DNA of 64,000 bases from Streptomyces sp. NBC_01317. GTDB lineage: Bacteria; Actinomycetota; Actinomycetes; Streptomycetales; Streptomycetaceae. The stretch is from positions 496,001-560,000 of the forward strand of contig NZ_CP108393.1 of NCBI RefSeq assembly GCF_035961655.1, in the 5' to 3' direction. The number at the start of each line of letters is the position of its first letter. Positions within the stretch are counted from its first letter, which is position 1. Under the pieces are notes generated by a model. It worked only from the letters and a program-made list of their open reading frames with translations. It ran no database searches and was not told where the DNA came from. Made by a program: the position numbers and the translations under genes. This document shows positions 14,433-27,261 of this stretch, in pieces.

Positions 14433-15227
14433 TCATGAGCCGACGGACATGACCTGCGGCGGCAGCCCGACGACGTGGTGGTGGAACCCGCTGGTCGCCC
14501 AGGTGGTGCCGTCCGCGGTGACCGCGAAACCCTCCGTCTCCGGCAGGGCCTCCAGCCAGTCGCGGGCCCGCTCGCCCATGGCGTACGCGGCGGTCGCCCG
14601 TACATCCGCCGTGGTCAGCCCCGCCGGGCAGACCACCGTGATCGACGCGAGTCCGCCGGCCGGTGCCTCGCCCGTACGGGGGTCGATGATGTGGCAGCCG
14701 CGCTCGGCGGGACCCGAGGTGGCCACCCCCAGGTCGTCCCCGGCCTCGACGACCGTGGCGAGCGCGCCCGGCCGCAGCGGGTCGGCGATGCCCACCCGCC
14801 AGGGTCCGCCGAGGAGTTGGACGTCACCTCCGCCGTTGAGACAGACCGCGCCCGCGCCGGCCTCGGCGACCGTCCTCGCCGCCCGCTCCACCGCCCACCC
14901 CTTCACCAGCCCGGTCGGATCGAGCCCGCCCGCGTAGCCGGTCGTGAACCATCCCCCGCTCTCCCGCGCGGCCGCCGCGCACAGGGCCAGCACCTCGGGG
15001 ACGTCGGGGTCGCAGTCGGCCTCCGTCAGCTCGCCCCGGGCGAGACGGGTGATCTCGCTGTCCTGACGGTACGTCGAGAAGATCTCGTCGGCGCGGTGGA
15101 GCGAGGCGACGGCGGCGCGCAGCCCCGCGCGGACCCGGGCCCCGTCGCGCACGCCCCGGACGTCGAACGAGAAGACCGTCCCCATCGACTCCTCGACGTG
15201 GCGCAGGCGTTCGCTTTCGGCGGCCAT
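14433..15227 (-). CDS. apbE: FAD:protein FMN transferase (ApbE family)
   Basis: Transfers FMN from FAD to a Thr or Ser of target proteins through a phosphoester bond, outside the membrane. The 264 residues include the ESMGTVFSFDV start, DPTGLVKGWAVERA (103-116) and NGGGDVQLLGG (131-141), which form the flavin and Mg sites, and a C-terminal THR/SGPAERGCHIIDPRTG-type motif. There is no evident signal peptide, unlike many Gram-negative homologues. The start ATG overlaps the stop of the FMN-binding protein gene by one base (TGATG), so the two are translationally coupled. Its obvious substrate is the SGAS motif of that upstream protein. Confidence 0.93.
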   Translation of the reverse strand: MAAESERLRHVEESMGTVFSFDVRGVRDGARVRAGLRAAVASLHRADEIFSTYRQDSEITRLARGELTEADCDPDVPEVLALCAAAARESGGWFTTGYAGGLDPTGLVKGWAVERAARTVAEAGAGAVCLNGGGDVQLLGGPWRVGIADPLRPGALATVVEAGDDLGVATSGPAERGCHIIDPRTGEAPAGGLASITVVCPAGLTTADVRATAAYAMGERARDWLEALPETEGFAVTADGTTWATSGFHHHVVGLPPQVMSVGS

Positions 15228-15823
15228 CAGACCCCGGCCTTGTCGAGGGCGCTCTGGAGCGAGTCCTGGTAGCCCTTGCTGGTGTAACTGGCGCCCGAGA
15301 CGGCGTCGATCCCCGCGCTCTGCGCCGCGACGGCGGCCTGGTTGAGCTGGGGGACGGCGTTGGCGGTGACCGACTTGCTCTGCGCGTCGGAACCGGGCGC
15401 CTGGACGGCCGCCGCCTTGACGATCTTCGTGCCGCTGAGGGTCAACTGCACCTGGACGGGCCCGTACTGGGTGTCGACCGCGTCACCGAGCACCGTCCGC
15501 ACGCGCGGCGGCGCGGGCCGGGCCGGGGCCTTCGGAGCCGGTACGCCGGCGTCCTGGCCATCCGCGTCCTCGGCACCGGCGTCCCGGGCGCCCGCCGAAG
15601 GAGCACCGGCGGCCGGGGCGTCGGCGGCGGAGTCACCGGCCGAGGGGGCGTCGCCCGCCGCCTGCGGTGCCCCGGCCGGGGGCGCGGCCACGCCGCCCGG
15701 CGGCACGGTCGCCACCGCCACCGACGATCCGCCGGGCTGCTTCAGCGCGAGCAGCAGGACAACGCCCGACGCGGTCGCGGCGACACCGATCATGATCCGC
15801 CGCAGCGGATGTCTCCTCTTCAC
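15227..15823 (-). CDS. membrane-anchored FMN-binding (flavinylated) protein
   Basis: Extracytoplasmic electron carrier of 198 residues. A single N-terminal membrane anchor (about 8-27) is followed by a long Ala/Pro/Gly/Asp linker (about 35-100) and a C-terminal FMN-binding domain (about 110-198). The motif SGASYT (176-181, in DAVSGASYTSKGYQDSLQ) matches the (S/T)GA(S/T) sequence in which ApbE attaches FMN covalently. The linker should let the domain reach across the cell wall or between partners. It lies between the ferric-reductase-like gene (10-bp gap) and apbE (1-bp overlap), so the three form one operon moving electrons from cytoplasmic NAD(P)H to the outside. Confidence 0.9.
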   Translation of the reverse strand: MKRRHPLRRIMIGVAATASGVVLLLALKQPGGSSVAVATVPPGGVAAPPAGAPQAAGDAPSAGDSAADAPAAGAPSAGARDAGAEDADGQDAGVPAPKAPARPAPPRVRTVLGDAVDTQYGPVQVQLTLSGTKIVKAAAVQAPGSDAQSKSVTANAVPQLNQAAVAAQSAGIDAVSGASYTSKGYQDSLQSALDKAGV

Positions 15824-15833
15824 GGGGTGTGCC

Positions 15834-17207
15834 TCACATCTCGAAGGATTCGTGGTGGATGCGGCGGGCGGGCACGCCCGCCGCGCGCAGGGCCTCGTAG
15901 GACTGGCGGGCCAGCCCGGTGGGACCGCAGACGTAGACGTCGTGGTCGTCGATGTCCGGCAGCAGTTCGCGCAGCCGCTGCGGTGTGATCTCCGGTCTGA
16001 CGCCGTCGGGTCCGTTGACGGCGTACAGGAGTCGCGCGCCGCGTGCGGACGCGATCCGCCGCAACTCGCCCCAGAGCGCGAGGTCTTCGGTCTTGCTGGC
16101 CCGGTAGAGCAGGGTCAGGTCGCCGGGTTCGCCGGGCAGCGTCTCGAACAGCGCCCGCATCGGGGTGATCCCGGCGCCGCCCGCGATCATCAGCACTTTC
16201 TCCTGGCTGCGCCGGGCCGCCGTCATCGCCCCGTACGGACCCTCCGCCCAGACCCGGGTGCCGGGCCGCAGCCCGGCCACGGCCTCGCTGTGCTCGCCGT
16301 TCGCCTTGACGGTGATGCGCAGCAGGTCGGGGCGCGGGGGTGCGGACAGGGAGTACGGGTTGGAGCTCCAGCGCAGTCCGTCCGTGAGGAACCGCCAGCG
16401 GAAGAACTGTCCCGGCTGGGCGCCGAGCCGGTGCAGCCGGCGCCCGGTGATCAGGACGGAGACGACGCCGGGTGATTCGTAGACGGTCTTCTCGACCCGC
16501 ATGCGGTGGCGCCGGTTGAGCCGGATCGGTGCCAGGACGCGGTACCAGAGCAGCAGGACCCCGGCCGCGCCGTAGAGCGCGTACCAGGCGGTGCGGGCCA
16601 TCGGGTTCGCCACGAACTCGGCTCCGGCGGCCAGTTGGTGCCAGAAGGTCAGGTAGACCGCGACATAGGTGAGGAGGTGCAGGTAGTACCAGGTCTCGTA
16701 GCGCATCCTGCGCCGTACAGCCCGCGCCGAGACGAAGCCGATCAGCAGGAGGATCGCGGTGCCGATGGTCGCCTCGATCATGCGCGGGAAGTCGACGACG
16801 AGGATGACGGTCTGTTCCACGAAGCCGGTGTTGGCCTGGACGGAGTATCCGCCGATGGTCAGCAGGAGGTGGGCGAGGACCAGGCTGACCGCGTACCGGC
16901 CGCTCATCGCGTGCCAGCGGGTCACGCGGTCGGAGCCCACCCGCCGTTCCAGCGCGGGGACCCGGGCCATCAGCAGGATGACGATCGCGATCGTGTAGCC
17001 GCCGAGGAGTCCGGTGAGGCGGCCCCCTCCGATCAGCCACTCGGCCATGTCCACATGGACGACCGGGGTGTTCTGCCACCACAGCGCCATGACGGCCACG
17101 GCGCCGGCCCAGCACGCCACCAACAGGGTTCGCGCGCCCGACCGTTGAGGGCGTATCGCGCGCATGGTCTGCCGTCGCGCGGCCCGGCCGTTGTGCATCA
17201 TCGCCAA
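15834..17207 (-). CDS. ferric-reductase-like transmembrane NAD(P)H oxidoreductase
   Basis: Membrane flavo-heme reductase of about 457 residues. The N-terminal half has six or so transmembrane helices of the ferric-reductase type, with His pairs suited to two hemes (WHAMSGRYAVSLVLAHLLL and WYYLHLLTYVAVYLTFWH). The C-terminal half is a ferredoxin-NADP-reductase module: FAD motif RWSSNPYSLS, NAD motif IAGGAGITPMRALFE and the terminal VYVCGPTGLARQ. The start is uncertain: TTG 17207 has GAGGAG 7 nt upstream, while ATGATG at 17201 would be 13 nt away. It would pass electrons across the membrane to the FMN-binding protein encoded next. Confidence 0.9.
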   Translation of the reverse strand: MAMMHNGRAARRQTMRAIRPQRSGARTLLVACWAGAVAVMALWWQNTPVVHVDMAEWLIGGGRLTGLLGGYTIAIVILLMARVPALERRVGSDRVTRWHAMSGRYAVSLVLAHLLLTIGGYSVQANTGFVEQTVILVVDFPRMIEATIGTAILLLIGFVSARAVRRRMRYETWYYLHLLTYVAVYLTFWHQLAAGAEFVANPMARTAWYALYGAAGVLLLWYRVLAPIRLNRRHRMRVEKTVYESPGVVSVLITGRRLHRLGAQPGQFFRWRFLTDGLRWSSNPYSLSAPPRPDLLRITVKANGEHSEAVAGLRPGTRVWAEGPYGAMTAARRSQEKVLMIAGGAGITPMRALFETLPGEPGDLTLLYRASKTEDLALWGELRRIASARGARLLYAVNGPDGVRPEITPQRLRELLPDIDDHDVYVCGPTGLARQSYEALRAAGVPARRIHHESFEM

Positions 17208-17334
17208 GGGAATGCTCCTCGATTCGCCCACGTGCCAGCCCATACGGATTTCGGCGGCGGCGAGTTCAATCGGAGAGCGGCCCGGAGCGGGGACTTCGCA
17301 CTTCGGTGGTTCCTCCCGGACCACCTGTACGGAT

Positions 17335-17829
17335 TTACGGCCGTACGTCCCCACCCGGGCGGCGCGCCCCGGCGTCCAGCAACTTTCCGAGGAGGGAGGA
17401 CAGTTGGTCGCGCTCCGCGGCGGTGAGGCCGTCGAACGCCTCGTCCAGGAACGCGGGGGTCGCCTCCTCGGCCCGGGCGAGGAGCGCCCGGCCCGAGTCG
17501 GTGAGGGTGACGGCGTAGGCGCGCCGGTCGCCGGGGGCCGGTTCACGGCGTACGTGCCCGGCGCGCTCCAGGCTGTCGCAGATGCCGACCATCACGGAGC
17601 GGTCGATGCGCAGCTCCTCACCGAGGAGCCGCTGCGAGCTGGGGCCGACGGCCGCGAGCATCTTCAGCACCAGGTGCTGACCGACCCCGGTTCCCAGCTC
17701 GGCCGCGCGGGTGTCCGCGGCCCGCGCGACGGCCGCCGACGCCCGGCACAGCGCGATGTCGAGACGTTCCGCCGCGAGCTGCGGGAAGTAGGCCGCGCCG
17801 CGCCGGCTCGTGGGGATCCTGGCCGTCAT
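17335..17829 (-). CDS. MarR-family transcriptional regulator
   Basis: Winged-helix dimeric repressor of 164 residues. ATG 17829 is preceded by GGAGG at a 5-nt spacing. The helix-turn-helix lies around residues 60-95 (LLGEELRIDRSVMVGICDSL) and the wing is RREPAPGDRRAYAVTLT, both standard for MarR. It is divergent from the nitroreductase gene, and the 159-bp region between them contains two related inverted-repeat sites, so it probably represses both genes and responds to a phenolic or electrophilic ligand, as is usual in MarR/nitroreductase pairs. The ligand is not deducible. Confidence 0.92.
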   Translation of the reverse strand: MTARIPTSRRGAAYFPQLAAERLDIALCRASAAVARAADTRAAELGTGVGQHLVLKMLAAVGPSSQRLLGEELRIDRSVMVGICDSLERAGHVRREPAPGDRRAYAVTLTDSGRALLARAEEATPAFLDEAFDGLTAAERDQLSSLLGKLLDAGARRPGGDVRP

Positions 17830-18636: not shown

Positions 18637-18689
18637 CGGGAAGGGGCGCAGCCCGGGCTCGGCGTCCGCGTCCCCCACTCCGGACAGCG

Positions 18690-18726
18690 GAAAGCCCCGG
18701 ACTCGGAGAACGAGTCCGGGGCTTTC
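18690..18726. terminator. 16-bp perfect stem, 5-nt loop terminator
   Basis: The arms gaaagccccggactcg (18690-18705) and cgagtccggggctttc (18711-18726) pair perfectly around gagaa. It starts 3 nt past the encoded CCA of the tRNA on the minus strand and about 53 bp beyond the nitroreductase stop on the plus strand, so it can end both transcripts. Confidence 0.85.
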
Positions 18727-18729
18727 CCA

Positions 18730-18802
18730 TGGAGCGCTGGGCAGGCCTTGCACCTGCATTTCCCCGCAGGAAGCGGGGCGTCTTTCCTTGGACCACCAAC
18801 GC
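18730..18802 (-). tRNA. unusual glycine-type tRNA, anticodon UCC, noncanonical T-loop
   Basis: The minus strand folds into a full 73-nt cloverleaf. Acceptor stem: GCGTTGG with CCAGCGC (7 pairs, one G-T), then discriminator T and an encoded CCA. T8 and G9 are followed by a 3-bp D-stem (GTC/GAC) with loop CAAGGAAA holding A14 and the G18-G19 pair. Anticodon arm: CCCCG/CGGGG with loop CTTCCTG, anticodon TCC. Variable loop: AAAT. T-arm: GCAGG/CCTGC with loop TGCAAGG. Glycine identity elements are present: G1-C72, C2-G71, G3-C70, C35, C36 and U73. Departures from elongator tRNAs: G at position 55 instead of U, U at 37 instead of a purine, and C32/G38 able to pair. A terminator follows. It is either a nonstandard glycyl-tRNA or a tRNA-derived RNA; it is not a usual proteinogenic tRNA-Gly. 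Confidence 0.75.
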
Positions 18803-18984
18803 GAGGCCCTGCCACCGGATTTCCGGCCGCGAGCACATGATCAATATTAGCGTACGAATCGAGTGCGCCGTGCCACGGCCGCACGGGCCGCTGGATACAG
18901 AACGGCGGACACGGGACACCGAGAAGGCCCGCCACCGGCGGTTCCGGAGTTGATGGCGGGACGTCGAAGCAGCACCCTGGGCGT

Positions 18985-21324
18985 ATGGACCATGCCGGCG
19001 CCGCTGCGATCATCGATCCCCAGGGCACCTTGACCGGGTGGAGCGAGGGAGCGCGGCTGCTCACGGGCCACACCGCCGAGGAGGCCGTGGGACGCCCCGC
19101 CCGGGAACTGCTCGCCGAGGACGCCCCGGCCGCCGCGGTGGCCGCGCTGGCCGGCCAGGTCGTGCTCCGCCACCGGGACGGTCACCCTCTGCGGCTGGCC
19201 CTCACCGCGTCCCCCGTGACGGACGCCGCCGGGGAGCCGCTGGGATACCTTGTCGGGGCCACGCCGACCGGCGCCCCCGAGTCCTCGCCGGCCGCGCGCG
19301 CCTTCCAGCAGGCTTCGGTCGCGATGTGTGTGTTCGACATGGACCAGCGGTTCCTCCTGGCGAACGGCAAGGCCTGCGAGATGCTGGGCGTCCCCGAGAG
19401 CGAGGTGCTGGGGCGCCTCTCCTCGGACGCCGTGCCGGTCGACGGGGGCGGCAGGGCGCTGCGGGACAACCTCGTCAAGGTCACTCGTACCGGAGTCTCC
19501 CTCCGTTACGATGTCGACGCCCCCGCGCCGTCCGACGGCCTGGACCGCGCCTGGAGCATCGACTTGTGGCCGGTCCTGGACCCGGCCGGTGACGTGTCGG
19601 CGGTGGCCATGGTGGCGTTCGACCGCACCGAGCAGCGCGGACTGCGCCGTCGGCTGGCCCTGCTGAACGAGGCGGCGACCCGGATCGGCACCACCCTGGA
19701 CGTGGTCCGCACCGCCGAGGAGCTGACCGCGCTGGTGGTGCCCCGCTTCGCGGACTTCGCCAGCGTCGACCTGCTCGACTGGGTGCTGGGGCCGGGCGAA
19801 CCGTCGGCCCCGACGGCAGAAGGCGTCCCACTGCGCCGTGCCGCGTACACCTCCCGTCTGAAGGAGGCGCCCCCGCCGGGCCTCAAACTGGGTGCGACAA
19901 GCGTCCATCCGTCCTTCTCCCCGACGGCCAGGGCGCTCGCGGAGGGACGGGGGATGCTGGTGAACGCGGGGGATCCGGGCTTCGTACGGTGGATGGAGTA
20001 CAACAACCGGCGTCATCCGGCCGGGCGCGCCCTCCGCGACAGGATCCGCTCCCTCCTGGTCGTGCCCCTGCGGGCCCGTGGCACGACGCTGGGCGTCGCG
20101 ATCTTCTCCCGCCTCGCCCACCCGGACGCGTACACCGCCGACGACATGGACCTGGCGGAGGAGCTGGCGAGCCGGGCGGCGGTGTGTGTGGACAACGCCC
20201 GCCGCTACACCCGCGAGCGCTCGACCGCGCTGACCCTCCAGCAGAGCCTGCTCCCCAAGGCCTCCGGCGGTCAGGCGGCGGTCACGGTCGCGCACCGCTA
20301 TCTCCCCTCCCGGTCGGCGGCCGGCATCGGCGGCGACTGGTTCGACGTCATCCCGCTCTCCGGCAGCCGCGTCGCCCTCGTCGTCGGTGACGTCGTGGGC
20401 CACGGCATCCAGTCCTCGGCCACCATGGGACGCCTGCGCACCGCCGTACGGACCCTCGCGGACGTCGATCTGCCGCCGGACGAACTGCTCACCCACCTCG
20501 ACGACCTCGTCACCCACCTGGCCGCCGACGAACACAGCGCCGAGATCGCCGAACTCGGCGCGACGTGCCTGTACGCCGTCTACGACCCCGTCGCCCGCCG
20601 TCTGACCCTGGCCTCGGCCGGGCATCCACCACCCGTTCTCGTACGGCCCGGCCGCGCCGGCCGCCTCGTCCAGGTCGCGACGGGGCCGCCCCTCGGCATC
20701 GGCGGCCTGCCCTTCGAGTCGACCGAGCTCCTCCTCCCCGAGGACTCGGTCCTCGCCCTGTACACGAACGGGCTCATCGAGGGCCCCGACCGTGACCTCG
20801 ACGACGCGACCGCCCAGCTGAGCGCGGCGCTGTCGGCCCCCGCCGCCGACCTCGACACCCTCTGCGACACGGTCCTGCGCGAGGTCCTGCCCGAGCAGCC
20901 CGGCGACGACGTGGTCCTGCTCCTCGCCAGGACCCAGGTACTCGGCACCGAACGGGTCGCCACCTGGGAGATCCCCGCCGACCCCGCCAGCGTGGCCACC
21001 GCCCGCCAGGCCGCGACGGACCAGCTGGCCGCGTGGGACCTGACGGCGGTCTCCTTCATCACCGAACTGGTCGTCAGCGAACTGGTCACCAACGCCATCC
21101 GCTACGGCGACCCCCCCATCCGGCTCCGCCTCATCCGGGACCACGCCCTCATCTGCGAGGTGTCCGACGCCAGTTCCACCTCGCCCCACCTGCGGCGCGC
21201 CCACGCCTACGACGAGGGTGGGCGCGGGCTGCTGCTCGTCGCGCAGCTGACGCGGCGCTGGGGCAGCCGGCAGACGGGTGGCGGCAAGACCATCTGGGCG
21301 GAGCAGACCCTGCCGCCCGACTGA
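18985..21324 (+). CDS. PAS-PAS-GAF-SpoIIE phosphatase fused to RsbW-like kinase domain
   Basis: Cytoplasmic regulatory protein of 779 residues. Domains: PAS (about 5-95), PAS (about 105-215, starting ARAFQQASVAMCVFDMDQRF), GAF (about 230-405, LLVVPLRARGTTLGVAIFSR), SpoIIE/PP2C phosphatase (about 425-650; GGDWFDV near 449, GDVVGHG near 469, YTNGLIEG, GDDVVLLL) and a C-terminal HATPase_c_2 anti-sigma-kinase-like domain (about 660-779; N-box ELVVSELVTNAIRYG and EGGRGLLLVAQL). The fusion puts the two opposing activities of a partner-switch system, phosphatase and kinase, in one chain. No anti-anti-sigma or sigma gene adjoins it. It lies downstream of and divergent from the tRNA gene. Confidence 0.93.
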   Translation: MDHAGAAAIIDPQGTLTGWSEGARLLTGHTAEEAVGRPARELLAEDAPAAAVAALAGQVVLRHRDGHPLRLALTASPVTDAAGEPLGYLVGATPTGAPESSPAARAFQQASVAMCVFDMDQRFLLANGKACEMLGVPESEVLGRLSSDAVPVDGGGRALRDNLVKVTRTGVSLRYDVDAPAPSDGLDRAWSIDLWPVLDPAGDVSAVAMVAFDRTEQRGLRRRLALLNEAATRIGTTLDVVRTAEELTALVVPRFADFASVDLLDWVLGPGEPSAPTAEGVPLRRAAYTSRLKEAPPPGLKLGATSVHPSFSPTARALAEGRGMLVNAGDPGFVRWMEYNNRRHPAGRALRDRIRSLLVVPLRARGTTLGVAIFSRLAHPDAYTADDMDLAEELASRAAVCVDNARRYTRERSTALTLQQSLLPKASGGQAAVTVAHRYLPSRSAAGIGGDWFDVIPLSGSRVALVVGDVVGHGIQSSATMGRLRTAVRTLADVDLPPDELLTHLDDLVTHLAADEHSAEIAELGATCLYAVYDPVARRLTLASAGHPPPVLVRPGRAGRLVQVATGPPLGIGGLPFESTELLLPEDSVLALYTNGLIEGPDRDLDDATAQLSAALSAPAADLDTLCDTVLREVLPEQPGDDVVLLLARTQVLGTERVATWEIPADPASVATARQAATDQLAAWDLTAVSFITELVVSELVTNAIRYGDPPIRLRLIRDHALICEVSDASSTSPHLRRAHAYDEGGRGLLLVAQLTRRWGSRQTGGGKTIWAEQTLPPD

Positions 21325-23981: not shown

Positions 23982-26033
23982 TCAGCGCAGGAAGGCCGCC
24001 GCGACCCCGGCGTCGACCGGGATGTGCAGCCCCGTGGTGTGGCTCAGGTCGCCGCCGGTCAGGGCGAAGACCGCGTTGGCCACGTGCTCGGGCAGGACTT
24101 CGCGTTTGAGCAGTGTGCGCTGGGCGTAGAACTCGCCGAGCTTGTCCTCCTCCACGCCGTAGACCGCGGCGCGTTGGGCGCCCCAGCCGCCCGCGAAGAT
24201 GCCGGAACCGCGCACGACCCCGTCGGGGTTGACGCCGTTGACGCGGATGCCAAGACCGCCCAGTTCGGCGGCGAGCAGCCGGACCTGGTGGGCCTGGTCG
24301 GCCTTGGTCGCGGAGTAGGCGATGTTGTTGGGTCCCGCGAACACCGCGTTCTTGGAGGTGATGTAGACGATGTCACCGCCGAGACCCTGGTCCGTCATCA
24401 TCCGCGCTGCCTCGCGGGAGACGAGGAAGGAGCCGCGGGCCATGACGGTGTGCTGGATGTCCCAGTCCCCGGCGGTGGTCTCCAGCAGTGGTTTGGAGAG
24501 GGAGATGCCGGCGTTGTTGACGACCAGGTCCACTCCGCCGAAGGCGAGCGCGGCGGCGGCGAAGGCCGCCTTGATCTGCTCCTCGTCGGTGACGTCGACC
24601 GTGACGGCGACGGCCTTGTCGGCGCCGCCCAACTCCTCCGCGACCGTGACGGCGCCCTCCGCGTCGATGTCGGCGACCACCACACAGGCCCCTTCCGCGA
24701 CCAGCCGGTGGGCGATGGCCCGGCCGATCCCCGACCCCGCGCCGGTGACCAGGGCGACCCGGGTGGCCAGCGGCTTCGGCGGGGGCATCCGGCGCAGCTT
24801 GGCCTCCTCCAACTCCCAGTATTCGATGCGGAACTTCTCGGACTCCTCGATGGGCGTGTACGAGGACACGGACTCGGCGCCGCGCATCACGTTGATGGCG
24901 TTGACGTAGAACTCCCCGGCGACCCGGGCGGTCTGCTTGTCCTTCCCGAAGGAGAACATGCCGACGCCGGGCACCAGGACGATCGCCGGGTCGGCGCCGC
25001 GCAGGGGCGGCGAGTCCGGGGTGGCGTGCCGTTCGTAGTACGCCCGGTACTCCTCGCGGTAGGCGGTGTGCAGGGTGGTCAGCCGCTCCTTGACCTGTTC
25101 CAGCGGTGTCGCGGCGGGGAGGTCGAGGACGAGCGGGCGGATCTTGGTCCGCAGGAAGTGGTCCGGGCAGGAGGTGCCCAGGGCCGCGAGCCGAGGGTGT
25201 CCGGCGCGGGCGAGGAATTCGAGGACGGTGTCCGTGGCCGTGTAGTGGGCGACCTGCGGCCGGTCGGTGGAGGCCAGTCCGCGCAGGTACGGGGCGAGTT
25301 CCGCCGCCCGCGCGCGCCGCGCCTCCTCATGCAGCGGCCCGTATCCCTCCTGTAGGGGTCCGAAGGGCTCGGGCGTGCCCTGCGCGTCGAGGAAGGCCTC
25401 GGCGGTACGGATGAGGTGGAGGGAGTTGTTCTCGCACTCCTCCGAGGTGTCGCCCCAGGCCGTGATGCCGTGGCCGCCGAGGATGCAGCCGATCGCCTGC
25501 GGGTTGGCCTCCTTGACCGCGGCGATGTCGAGGCCGAGCTGGAAGCCGGGGCGCCGCCAGGGGACCCAGACGACGGTGTCGCCGAAACACGCTGCGGTCA
25601 GCTTCTCGCCGTCGGCCGCGCAGGCGAGGGCGATCCCGGAGTCCGGGTGGAGGTGGTCCACGTGTGCGGCGCCGACCAGTCCGTGTATCGCGGTGTCGAT
25701 GGACGGGGCGGCCCCGCCCTTGCCGTACAGGCAGTGGTCGAAGGCGGCGACCATCTCGTCCTCGCGCTCCACCCCCGGGTAGGCGCCGGCCAGTTGGCGC
25801 AGGCGGTCGACCCGCAGCGCGGCGAGTCCCCCGGCGGTGAGGGTGCCCAGGTCGCCGCCGGACCCCTTGACCCACATCAGCTCGACGGCGTCGCCCGTCA
25901 CGGGATCGGGGGCGGAGCCCTTGGCCGAGGTGTTGCCGCCCGCGTAGTTGGTGTTCCTGGGGTCCGCACCGAGCCGGTGCGAGCGGGCGATCAACTCGGC
26001 TGCCACGGGGTGAAGTTGAGGCTGGTCGGTCAT
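23982..26033 (-). CDS. rhaD: bifunctional rhamnulose-1-phosphate aldolase / L-lactaldehyde dehydrogenase
   Basis: Fusion of 683 residues. The N-terminal class II aldolase domain (about 1-410) has GGNTSAKG and the zinc site HVDHLHPDSGIALAC plus a later His in CILGGHGITAWG; it cleaves L-rhamnulose-1-phosphate to DHAP and L-lactaldehyde. The C-terminal short-chain dehydrogenase domain (about 425-683) has VTGAGSGIGRA, NNAGIS and the YSATK catalytic pair, and should oxidise L-lactaldehyde to L-lactate. Of two adjacent ATGs (26036, 26033) the second is better placed behind GAGGG. The same fusion occurs in rhamnose loci of many actinobacteria and Bacillus. No separate mutarotase gene was found in the locus. 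Confidence 0.94.
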   Translation of the reverse strand: MTDQPQLHPVAAELIARSHRLGADPRNTNYAGGNTSAKGSAPDPVTGDAVELMWVKGSGGDLGTLTAGGLAALRVDRLRQLAGAYPGVEREDEMVAAFDHCLYGKGGAAPSIDTAIHGLVGAAHVDHLHPDSGIALACAADGEKLTAACFGDTVVWVPWRRPGFQLGLDIAAVKEANPQAIGCILGGHGITAWGDTSEECENNSLHLIRTAEAFLDAQGTPEPFGPLQEGYGPLHEEARRARAAELAPYLRGLASTDRPQVAHYTATDTVLEFLARAGHPRLAALGTSCPDHFLRTKIRPLVLDLPAATPLEQVKERLTTLHTAYREEYRAYYERHATPDSPPLRGADPAIVLVPGVGMFSFGKDKQTARVAGEFYVNAINVMRGAESVSSYTPIEESEKFRIEYWELEEAKLRRMPPPKPLATRVALVTGAGSGIGRAIAHRLVAEGACVVVADIDAEGAVTVAEELGGADKAVAVTVDVTDEEQIKAAFAAAALAFGGVDLVVNNAGISLSKPLLETTAGDWDIQHTVMARGSFLVSREAARMMTDQGLGGDIVYITSKNAVFAGPNNIAYSATKADQAHQVRLLAAELGGLGIRVNGVNPDGVVRGSGIFAGGWGAQRAAVYGVEEDKLGEFYAQRTLLKREVLPEHVANAVFALTGGDLSHTTGLHIPVDAGVAAAFLR

Positions 26034-26091
26034 CATGTCCCTCTGTGGGTGGGCCACTGCGGTGTACGGGGGTCGGGTGCGGCCGGGGTGG

Positions 26092-27261
26092 TCAGGCGCC
26101 CCAGCCGGCCGCCGTGCCGCCGACCCGCTCGGCGACGATCTTCTCTCCGTACCCGGACGCGTGGTAGGCGGCCACCGGGTCGGCGTCCGCGCCCAGTTCC
26201 GCGCGTACCTCGGCCACCAGCGGCCGTACGTCGGTGTTGAAGGCGTCCATGACCACGGCGTTCGCGGCCAGGACGTCACCGGCGCGCTGGGCCGCCGCCA
26301 GGGCCTCCGCGTCCACCAACAGCGCCTTGGCGGTGGCTTCCTGAACGTTCATCACCGAGCGGATGACCGCCGGGATCTTCTCCTCGATGTTGTGGCACTG
26401 GTCGAGCATGAACGCCGTGTCCGGGGTGAATCCGCCGCCGCGGATGACCTCGTACATGATCCGGAACAGCTGGAAGGGGTCGGCCGCCCCGGCCATCAGG
26501 TCGTCGTCCGCGTAGAAGCGGGAGTTGAAGTCGAAGCCGCCGAGCTTCTTCTCCCGCAGGAGGACGGCGACGATGAACTCGATGTTGGTGCCCGGCGCGT
26601 GGTGACCGGTGTCGACCACCACCTGCGCCCGGGGCCCCAGCCGCAGGCAGTGGGCGTACGCGGTGCCCCAGTCGGGGACGTCCATCGTGTAGAAGGAGGG
26701 CTCGAACAGCTTGTACTCCAGCAGCATCCGCTGGTGGCCGCCGAGCCGTTCGTACACCGCCGCCAGGGCCTCGGCGAGGCGCCCTTGGCGCGCCGAGATG
26801 TCGTCCTGGCCCGGGTAGTTGGTGCCGTCGGAGAACCAGAGCTTGAGGTCGCGCGAGCCGGTGGCGTCCATGACGTCCACGCACTCCAGCAGGTGCGCCA
26901 GCGCCTTGCGGCGCACCGCCGGGTCCGGGTGGGTGACGGATCCCAGCTTGTAGTCGTCGTCCTGGAAGACGTTCGAGTTGATCACGCCGATCCGGACGCC
27001 CAGGTCCCGCGCGTGCGCGCCGAGCGCCACGTAGTCGTCCACCCGGTCCCACGGGATGTGCAGCGCCACCGTCGGGGCCACGCCCGTGTGCGCGTGCACC
27101 CGGGCGGCGTCCGCGAGCTTCTCCCGCGGCGTACGCGGCACCCCCTTCTGCGCGAACACCTTGAACCGCGTGCCGGAGTTCCCGAAAGCCCAGGACGGCG
27201 TCTCGACGGCCTGCGACTTCAACGCCGCCTTCGCGGCGGACACGGCGGATCGACCCGTCAT
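26092..27261 (-). CDS. rhaI: L-rhamnose isomerase
   Basis: Interconverts L-rhamnose and L-rhamnulose; a metal-dependent TIM-barrel enzyme of 389 residues in the RhaI (xylose-isomerase-like) family rather than the E. coli RhaA family. Recognisable segments are TRFKVFAQKGVPRTPREKL, LKLWFSDGTNYPGQDD, RMLLEYKLFEPSFYTMDVPDWG with a metal-binding Glu, VDTGHHAPGTNIEFIVA and GFDFNSRFYADDDLM. It is the first gene of the leftward arm and carries the near-consensus promoter at 27336-27308. The 58-bp gap to rhaD is compatible with one transcript. Confidence 0.95.
   Translation of the reverse strand: MTGRSAVSAAKAALKSQAVETPSWAFGNSGTRFKVFAQKGVPRTPREKLADAARVHAHTGVAPTVALHIPWDRVDDYVALGAHARDLGVRIGVINSNVFQDDDYKLGSVTHPDPAVRRKALAHLLECVDVMDATGSRDLKLWFSDGTNYPGQDDISARQGRLAEALAAVYERLGGHQRMLLEYKLFEPSFYTMDVPDWGTAYAHCLRLGPRAQVVVDTGHHAPGTNIEFIVAVLLREKKLGGFDFNSRFYADDDLMAGAADPFQLFRIMYEVIRGGGFTPDTAFMLDQCHNIEEKIPAVIRSVMNVQEATAKALLVDAEALAAAQRAGDVLAANAVVMDAFNTDVRPLVAEVRAELGADADPVAAYHASGYGEKIVAERVGGTAAGWGA

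Follow-up and report, generated by a model that had tools for sequence, protein, structure and literature searches.

A conserved family of tRNA-Gly-like RNAs in Streptomyces with glycine identity at the acceptor end and no conserved decoding

The closest described counterparts of the RNA reported here are the non-proteinogenic tRNA-Gly species of Staphylococcus aureus, in which A49-U65 and A51-U63 replace G49-U65 and G51-C63, and UU or CU replaces G18G19 (PMC4052509). Like these species, which are linked to FemXAB pentaglycine synthesis, the streptomycete element is an extra species beside the canonical set, with an A-U pair at 51-63 and an altered elbow (PMC4052509). It differs from them in keeping G18G19, in having G-C at 49-65 and G at position 55, and in an anticodon loop that is sometimes only 6 nt long; it is also plasmid-borne and patchily distributed, with no ligase assigned to it.

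Other systems share single features with the element. The tRNA-ProX/ProRSx systems of Streptomyces and Kitasatospora likewise provide accessory extra tRNAs with a role of their own, but tRNA-ProX decodes and often adjoins an unusual synthetase (PMC10365949). The element shows neither an adjoining ProRSx nor a decoding anticodon, no neighbour recurring among 99 copies and no synthetase appearing among the plasmid neighbours listed. The tRNA-Asp-AUC of a desert Streptomyces is again an extra functional streptomycete tRNA but, unlike the element, decodes GAU codons (PMC9262613). The pseudo-tRNA tRNAOther of Bacillus cereus is tRNA-like, has no translation function and gives a cell-wall phenotype on deletion; unlike the element it flanks a pathogenicity island (PMC3399842). 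Giant linear plasmids of Mycobacterium avium also place tRNA genes on actinobacterial linear plasmids, as array units, but these are tRNA gene clusters considered a putative antidefence system (PMC12803027). We found no description of the element itself in the open-access literature searched, including the available text of the ncRNA papers PMC11678152 and PMC11109978 without their supplements; most subscription papers lie outside this search.

Structure and presumed transcription unit of the element

The window, a stretch of 64,000 nt from the genome of Streptomyces sp. NBC_01317, contains a single tRNA detectable by ARAGORN, a tRNA-Gly(tcc) at 18730-18802 (-). This call agrees with the fold of lowest energy for the 70-nt core, a cloverleaf (-35.5 kcal/mol) with C32-G38 paired, and so bears out the glycine-type cloverleaf claimed in an earlier note on this DNA. 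The acceptor stem, GCGUUGG/CCAGCGC, reads G1-C72, C2-G71 and G3-C70 and is followed by U73 and an encoded CCA. The anticodon loop, CUUCCUG, carries UCC and U37, with C32 and G38 able to pair; the T-loop, UGCAAGG, has G at position 55; and the D-stem has three pairs with a C13/A22 mismatch. Each of the identity and loop positions named in the earlier note is thus present in the sequence. A second copy in the host genome (G000:7355743-7355815) is identical at 73 of 73 nt, and homology between the two copies covers 18687-18855, from terminator to promoter (Table 1).

Table 1. Features of the element and its presumed transcription unit in the window
Feature	Position	Strand	Basis or remark
tRNA-Gly-like RNA	core (70 nt) 18733-18802; CCA 18730-18732	-	ARAGORN, fold, 219 aligned copies
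-10 hexamer TAATAT	18844..18849	-	family extended -10 TGnGn-TAnnnT; window extension reads TACGC
GATC at presumed transcript start (GATCAT, fits GATCWT)	18839..18842	-	family motif count
Leader, GATC to tRNA 5' end, hairpin fold	18803..18842	-	206 leaders folded; presumed transcript start
17-bp hairpin, probable U-less terminator	18689..18727	-	fold; adjoins 3' end of element

The general tRNA model passes the element over. When the host genome was searched with Rfam RF00005, neither copy was among the 71 matches at E<=10; 66 host tRNAs pass the cut-off and the element lies below it, and a search of the window at the gathering threshold gave no match. ARAGORN labels 26 of 30 element loci tested as tRNA-Gly, so that Streptomyces tRNA counts made with this program may be inflated. 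The element is an addition to the canonical set, since the tRNAs fetched from the host already include tRNA-Gly genes for UCC, CCC and, twice, GCC. Its best alignment to the host tRNAs, a weak one, is to tRNA-Arg(cct), and no origin from a host tRNA is evident.

Upstream, a TAnnnT motif lies between -70 and -40 in 215 of 219 copies, most often at -47 or -46. It is preceded by an extended -10 sequence TGnGn (T in 81%, G in 72% and G in 86% of 214 aligned promoters); TAnnnT is itself invariant in this alignment because the promoters were aligned on it. Of the 219 copies, 199 have GATC somewhere from -65 to -31 and 147 have GATCWT, these motif counts, like those for TAnnnT, being without a shuffle control; the invariance of GATC in the leader alignment reflects the choice of leaders that contain it. 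The nucleoid protein Gbn recognises GATCWT (PMC9239103). The 206 leaders fold better, one by one, than their shuffles (mean z -1.85), and an alignment fold of 62 leaders gave a consensus of 0 pairs.

Downstream, the 60 nt 3' of the core have a mean folding energy of -36.5 kcal/mol across the family, and a U-run follows the hairpin in 14 of 218 copies. For the window copy, where the earlier note had claimed a strong terminator, a strong 17-bp hairpin does adjoin the 3' side, but there is no U-run. A consensus scan of the minus strand at the locus found neither a sigma-70-type promoter nor a T-run terminator. With no good -35 to accompany the -10 and no T-run after the hairpin, the case for both promoter and terminator is a comparative one.

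Conservation and spread of the family

From 225 distinct contexts, 219 full copies with 64 distinct cores were aligned, leaving out three odd and three partial copies. One further irregular copy, L071, was kept but is misaligned, because its missing base falls in the D-loop, and is counted as having a 7-nt anticodon loop. In all 219 copies G1-C72, C2-G71, G3-C70, G53-C61, U73 and C74 are invariant, as is G10, and the anticodon loop holds NCC, read as UCC, GCC or ACC, each a glycine anticodon. Elsewhere the stems vary with pairing retained, at pairs 4-69, 5-68 and 6-67 and in the anticodon stem; pairing is broken only by a lone U-U at 5-68 and, at each of the two innermost pairs of the anticodon stem, in a single cell, these two pairs otherwise taking three and five standard types. 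RNAalifold recovers the cloverleaf unaided from the 64 cores, with 18 pairs, four of them with double changes. Drift without compensatory change, named beforehand as the outcome that would count against the element, is not what the stems display.

The loops fall into two kinds. Those of the D- and T-arms, AAGGAAA and UGCAAGG, hardly vary although both are abnormal, G55 having a frequency of 1.00 (to two decimals) where a proteinogenic tRNA-Gly would have U54-U55; we take the UGCAA of the T-loop to be an instance of the T-loop motif known from other RNAs, in its UGNRA form. The anticodon loop is far more variable (CUUCCUG, CUUCCCG, CUUCCGG, CUCCAA, AUCCAA, CAGCCG, CAACCG, CAUCCG and CUGCCG are among its forms) and is 6 nt long in 24 of 219 copies. 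Position 37 of the 7-nt loops is U or C in 194 of 195 and a purine, G, in one. Since the loop varies beyond NCC, decoding geometry is not under selection: with the identity positions invariant and loop length and position 37 variable, the positions that serve a synthetase are fixed and those that serve decoding are free. Pairing between the D-loop and the anticodon loop (AGGAA with UUCCU) was considered and dropped, because loops with AGCC or AACC break it. The encoded CCA, which the earlier note reported, holds for the window copy but not as a family feature, as only 90 of 219 copies encode it in full and C75 is missing from 95 of the 218 in which it can be read.

We conclude that the element belongs to a conserved, structured and dispersed RNA family with glycine identity at the acceptor end and no conserved decoding. 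Of 293 genomes from the order, 151 contain matches to a core pattern, up to six per genome; all 151 are among the 273 genomes of the genus Streptomyces and none among the 20 others, and the same pattern read backwards, as a control, gave no match in any row listed. By BLAST (E<=0.01), 64 of 199 genomes match, the host included, all of them Streptomyces; two of the 64 (G035 and G044) match over 22 nt only and were counted as chance. This recurrence is far above chance. Among GTDB genomes there are at least 120 matching stretches, those listed comprising 119 from Streptomyces (one a MAG) and one from Actinacidiphila. BLAST of plasmids places the element at 136 sites in 70 records, 68 from Streptomyces and two from Streptantibioticus, records that are not independent, since 13 of the 60 listed are of S. 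clavuligerus. Besides S. clavuligerus, the carriers include S. lavendulae CCM 3239 and S. griseofuscus DSM 40191. RNA genes are absent from the plasmid gene table, so that a blank there is not proof that NCBI leaves the element unannotated.

A phage origin finds no support, with no match in 50,697 phage records. A class-wide covariance model search of 394 genomes, with stricter filters that lose weak matches, found 29 genomes, nine of them outside Streptomyces. These nine were rejected as the element: three are tRNA-Arg, one is tRNA-Leu and five are weak (E 8.8e-4 to 0.0052) without an ARAGORN gene. Neither among the matches listed from the GTDB scan nor in the class-wide model search was a homologue found outside the Streptomycetaceae.

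Glycine identity and candidate functions

The glycyl-tRNA synthetase (GlyRS) of Thermus is a dimeric enzyme, and the host genome has one gene matching the dimeric GlyRS family. Identity for the Thermus enzyme lies in G1-C72, C2-G71, C50-G64, G10, U16, C35 and C36 (PMC9976931). The element has every one of these determinants but U16, although the 6-nt loops leave the register of C35-C36 in doubt; C50-G64 is present in 207 of 219 copies and is U-G in the other 12. The staphylococcal-type set (G1-C72, C2-G71, U73, C35 and C36) is found in all 219, if NCC is accepted where the loop is shifted to 6 nt. The host comparison covered 52 distinct tRNA sequences, from part of the 66 genes and including one apparent false ARAGORN call; G1-C72, C2-G71, G3-C70, U73 and C50-G64 occur together in none of them but the three tRNA-Gly. 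A CC 3' end is encoded by 51 of the 52, the exception looking like a false call.

In the T-stem, the pairs that go with weak EF-Tu binding in the staphylococcal type are A49-U65 and A51-U63. The host's three distinct tRNA-Gly have G49-U65 in each case and G51-C63 in two of three, compared with A-U at 51-63 in 215 and G-C at 49-65 in 218 of the 219 element copies, in which G18G19 is also kept (frequency 1.00 to two decimals). A host tRNA-Arg shares the A-U at 51-63 and has the same T-stem as the element. Because of this, and because only one of three staphylococcal features is shared, weak binding to EF-Tu is no more than an inference.

What might such an RNA do? Our preferred reading, a tentative one put at a little under an even chance, is that it is a non-proteinogenic glycyl-tRNA, stand-alone and multi-copy, which is analogous rather than demonstrably homologous to the staphylococcal species. 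It would be transcribed from its own promoter, its leader would be cut off by RNase P and its CCA completed, and glycine would be loaded by the host's dimeric-type GlyRS, as the invariant identity elements suggest. The RNA would be unfit to decode, having either a 6-nt loop or a 7-nt loop closable by C32-G38, with a purine at 37 in one copy only; its binding to EF-Tu would probably be weak, given the altered T-stem and elbow; and its glycine could be handed to a putative tRNA-dependent acceptor reaction not encoded beside it.

Several features would favour such a glycyl-tRNA: the invariant acceptor-end positions, G10 and NCC, the C50-G64 that is mostly kept, a combination of features otherwise specific to the host's tRNA-Gly, the free loop, A51-U63 as in S. 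aureus, the covariation and the unaided cloverleaf. Set against it are the absence of U16, the uncertain register of the 6-nt loops, the frequent lack of C75, the lack of a recurring ligase or synthetase, the failure of FemAB and LanB to track the element, the identity of the T-stem with that of a host tRNA-Arg, and the retained G18G19. The earlier note's idea of a non-proteinogenic tRNA-Gly therefore stands in part: fixed identity positions, drifting decoding positions and A-U at 51-63 agree with it, but G18G19 and G-C at 49-65 do not.

The link to peptidoglycan that the earlier note had drawn gains nothing from co-occurrence, as FemAB matches are present in 73 of 73 Streptomyces genomes checked and the element in 34. 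The element goes with larger genomes (9.21 Mb, vs 8.00 Mb where it is absent) and with a greater number of FemAB matches (3.79 vs 2.82), an excess that is not significant when adjusted for size (p 0.12). LanB was rejected as a partner, its N-terminal/PEARL domain having no match in several element-bearing genomes (for example G007, G009, G016, G017 and G049). With FemAB universal and LanB dispensable, neither explains the patchy spread of the element.

A bolder form of the glycyl-tRNA reading, which we consider possible but somewhat less probable, is that these are dedicated, genus-wide glycyl carriers wholly outside translation, found on chromosome arms and linear plasmids alike. The housekeeping GlyRS would charge them, and they would serve in trans a putative glycine-transfer enzyme that recognises them by the T-loop/D-loop elbow. 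To our knowledge the staphylococci are the only other lineage in which a tRNA-Gly has been removed from translation. Were the reading true, Streptomyces would be a second such lineage, here with plasmid locations too; the main antibiotic-producing genus would have an unrecognised step that consumes glycyl-tRNA; and the family would be a natural experiment for telling the tRNA positions that the synthetase needs from those that the ribosome needs, selection having parted the two.

Conservation of the identity positions would be equally expected of a decoy, bound and perhaps charged, that ties up GlyRS, or else an enzyme specific for Gly-tRNA (a TacT-like acetyltransferase toxin, for instance), and donates no glycine. 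TacT reads U73 and G71 of Gly-tRNA (PMC9976931), both of which are invariant in the element, and a decoy would suit the location on plasmids and chromosome arms, the lack of a ligase recurring nearby and the unconserved CCA. We nevertheless think it unlikely: a decoy would need high RNA abundance, no toxin gene recurs beside the element, and one acting through the acceptor stem has no need of invariant D- and T-loops. The near-invariance of those loops, AAGGAAA and UGCAAGG, together with the variable 3' end, speaks for a tRNA-shaped regulatory sRNA that is never charged and whose CC-containing loop or elbow binds another RNA or a protein; UUCCU, moreover, is complementary to a Shine-Dalgarno-like AGGAA. 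But the loop is fixed for NCC only, its AGCC, AACC and AUCC variants mismatching AGGAA, and the acceptor end through U73 is among the most fixed parts, so that we rate this sRNA no higher than the decoy. A translating tRNA-Gly with unusual loops, as the ARAGORN annotation and UCC anticodon would have it, is very improbable in view of the 24 six-nt loops, the pyrimidine at 37 in nearly all the others, the host's existing UCC, CCC and two GCC genes, and the absence from RF00005 matches. Least probable of all are decaying repeats derived from a tRNA gene, which could account for truncated or decayed copies (L085, L218), the D-loop base lost from L071 and the location in arms and plasmids, but which are contradicted by the compensatory changes, by the fixed identity positions and by the presence of a promoter motif in nearly every copy.

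Genomic placement and neighbouring genes

Grouping 99 copies by their shared flanking proteins, a few of these copies being partial or doubtful, gives about 71 site groups, around which no recurrent partner gene was found. Only generic sensor/phosphatase genes are shared, near 18 of the roughly 71 groups, possibly just because such genes are common. Nor does a ligase or synthetase recur in the annotated plasmid flanks, for which the gene table is incomplete and two records are nearly unannotated. An empty insertion site was looked for and not found. At 22 of the 99 sites a simple ORF caller runs an ORF through the core, but coding is unlikely because single-base length changes occur in the core.

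Among the 40 places on long chromosome contigs, 18 fall within the terminal 10% at one end or the other, where 20% would be expected (p 3e-4); terminal-repeat duplicates were removed from the count, and the places are not fully independent. Multi-copy genomes account for the excess, with 15 of 22 places so located, compared with three of 18 in single-copy genomes. Copies within a genome differ by 1.35 mismatches, compared with 6.0 between genomes (p 0.0005 by label shuffles), and their leaders, too, show some of this likeness. Clade types that are inherited vertically and duplicated locally would give such a pattern, in which gene conversion may also play a part.

Some individual sites are of interest in their own right. 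Two copies, L218 (around 7171, minus strand) and L085 (around 9060, minus strand), are 5'-truncated or decayed and have no usable acceptor stem. In one site group (L035, L041, L062, L064, L102 and L104) the element lies downstream of two genes that we take to be tsaE and tsaD, of a t6A tRNA-modification operon. On the plasmids L345 and L349 it follows prim-pol, P4-type primase and DUF6009 genes. In the window it is divergent from a PAS-GAF-SpoIIE-HATPase gene (18985-21321, plus strand). The window also encodes, at 14433-17546, a ferric-reductase-like membrane protein with an NAD-binding domain, near an ApbE-family gene, which suggests a flavinylated redox protein system, and, at 23985-26279 on the minus strand, a fusion of a class II aldolase with a short-chain dehydrogenase, presumably resembling the bifunctional rhamnulose-phosphate aldolase/dehydrogenase.
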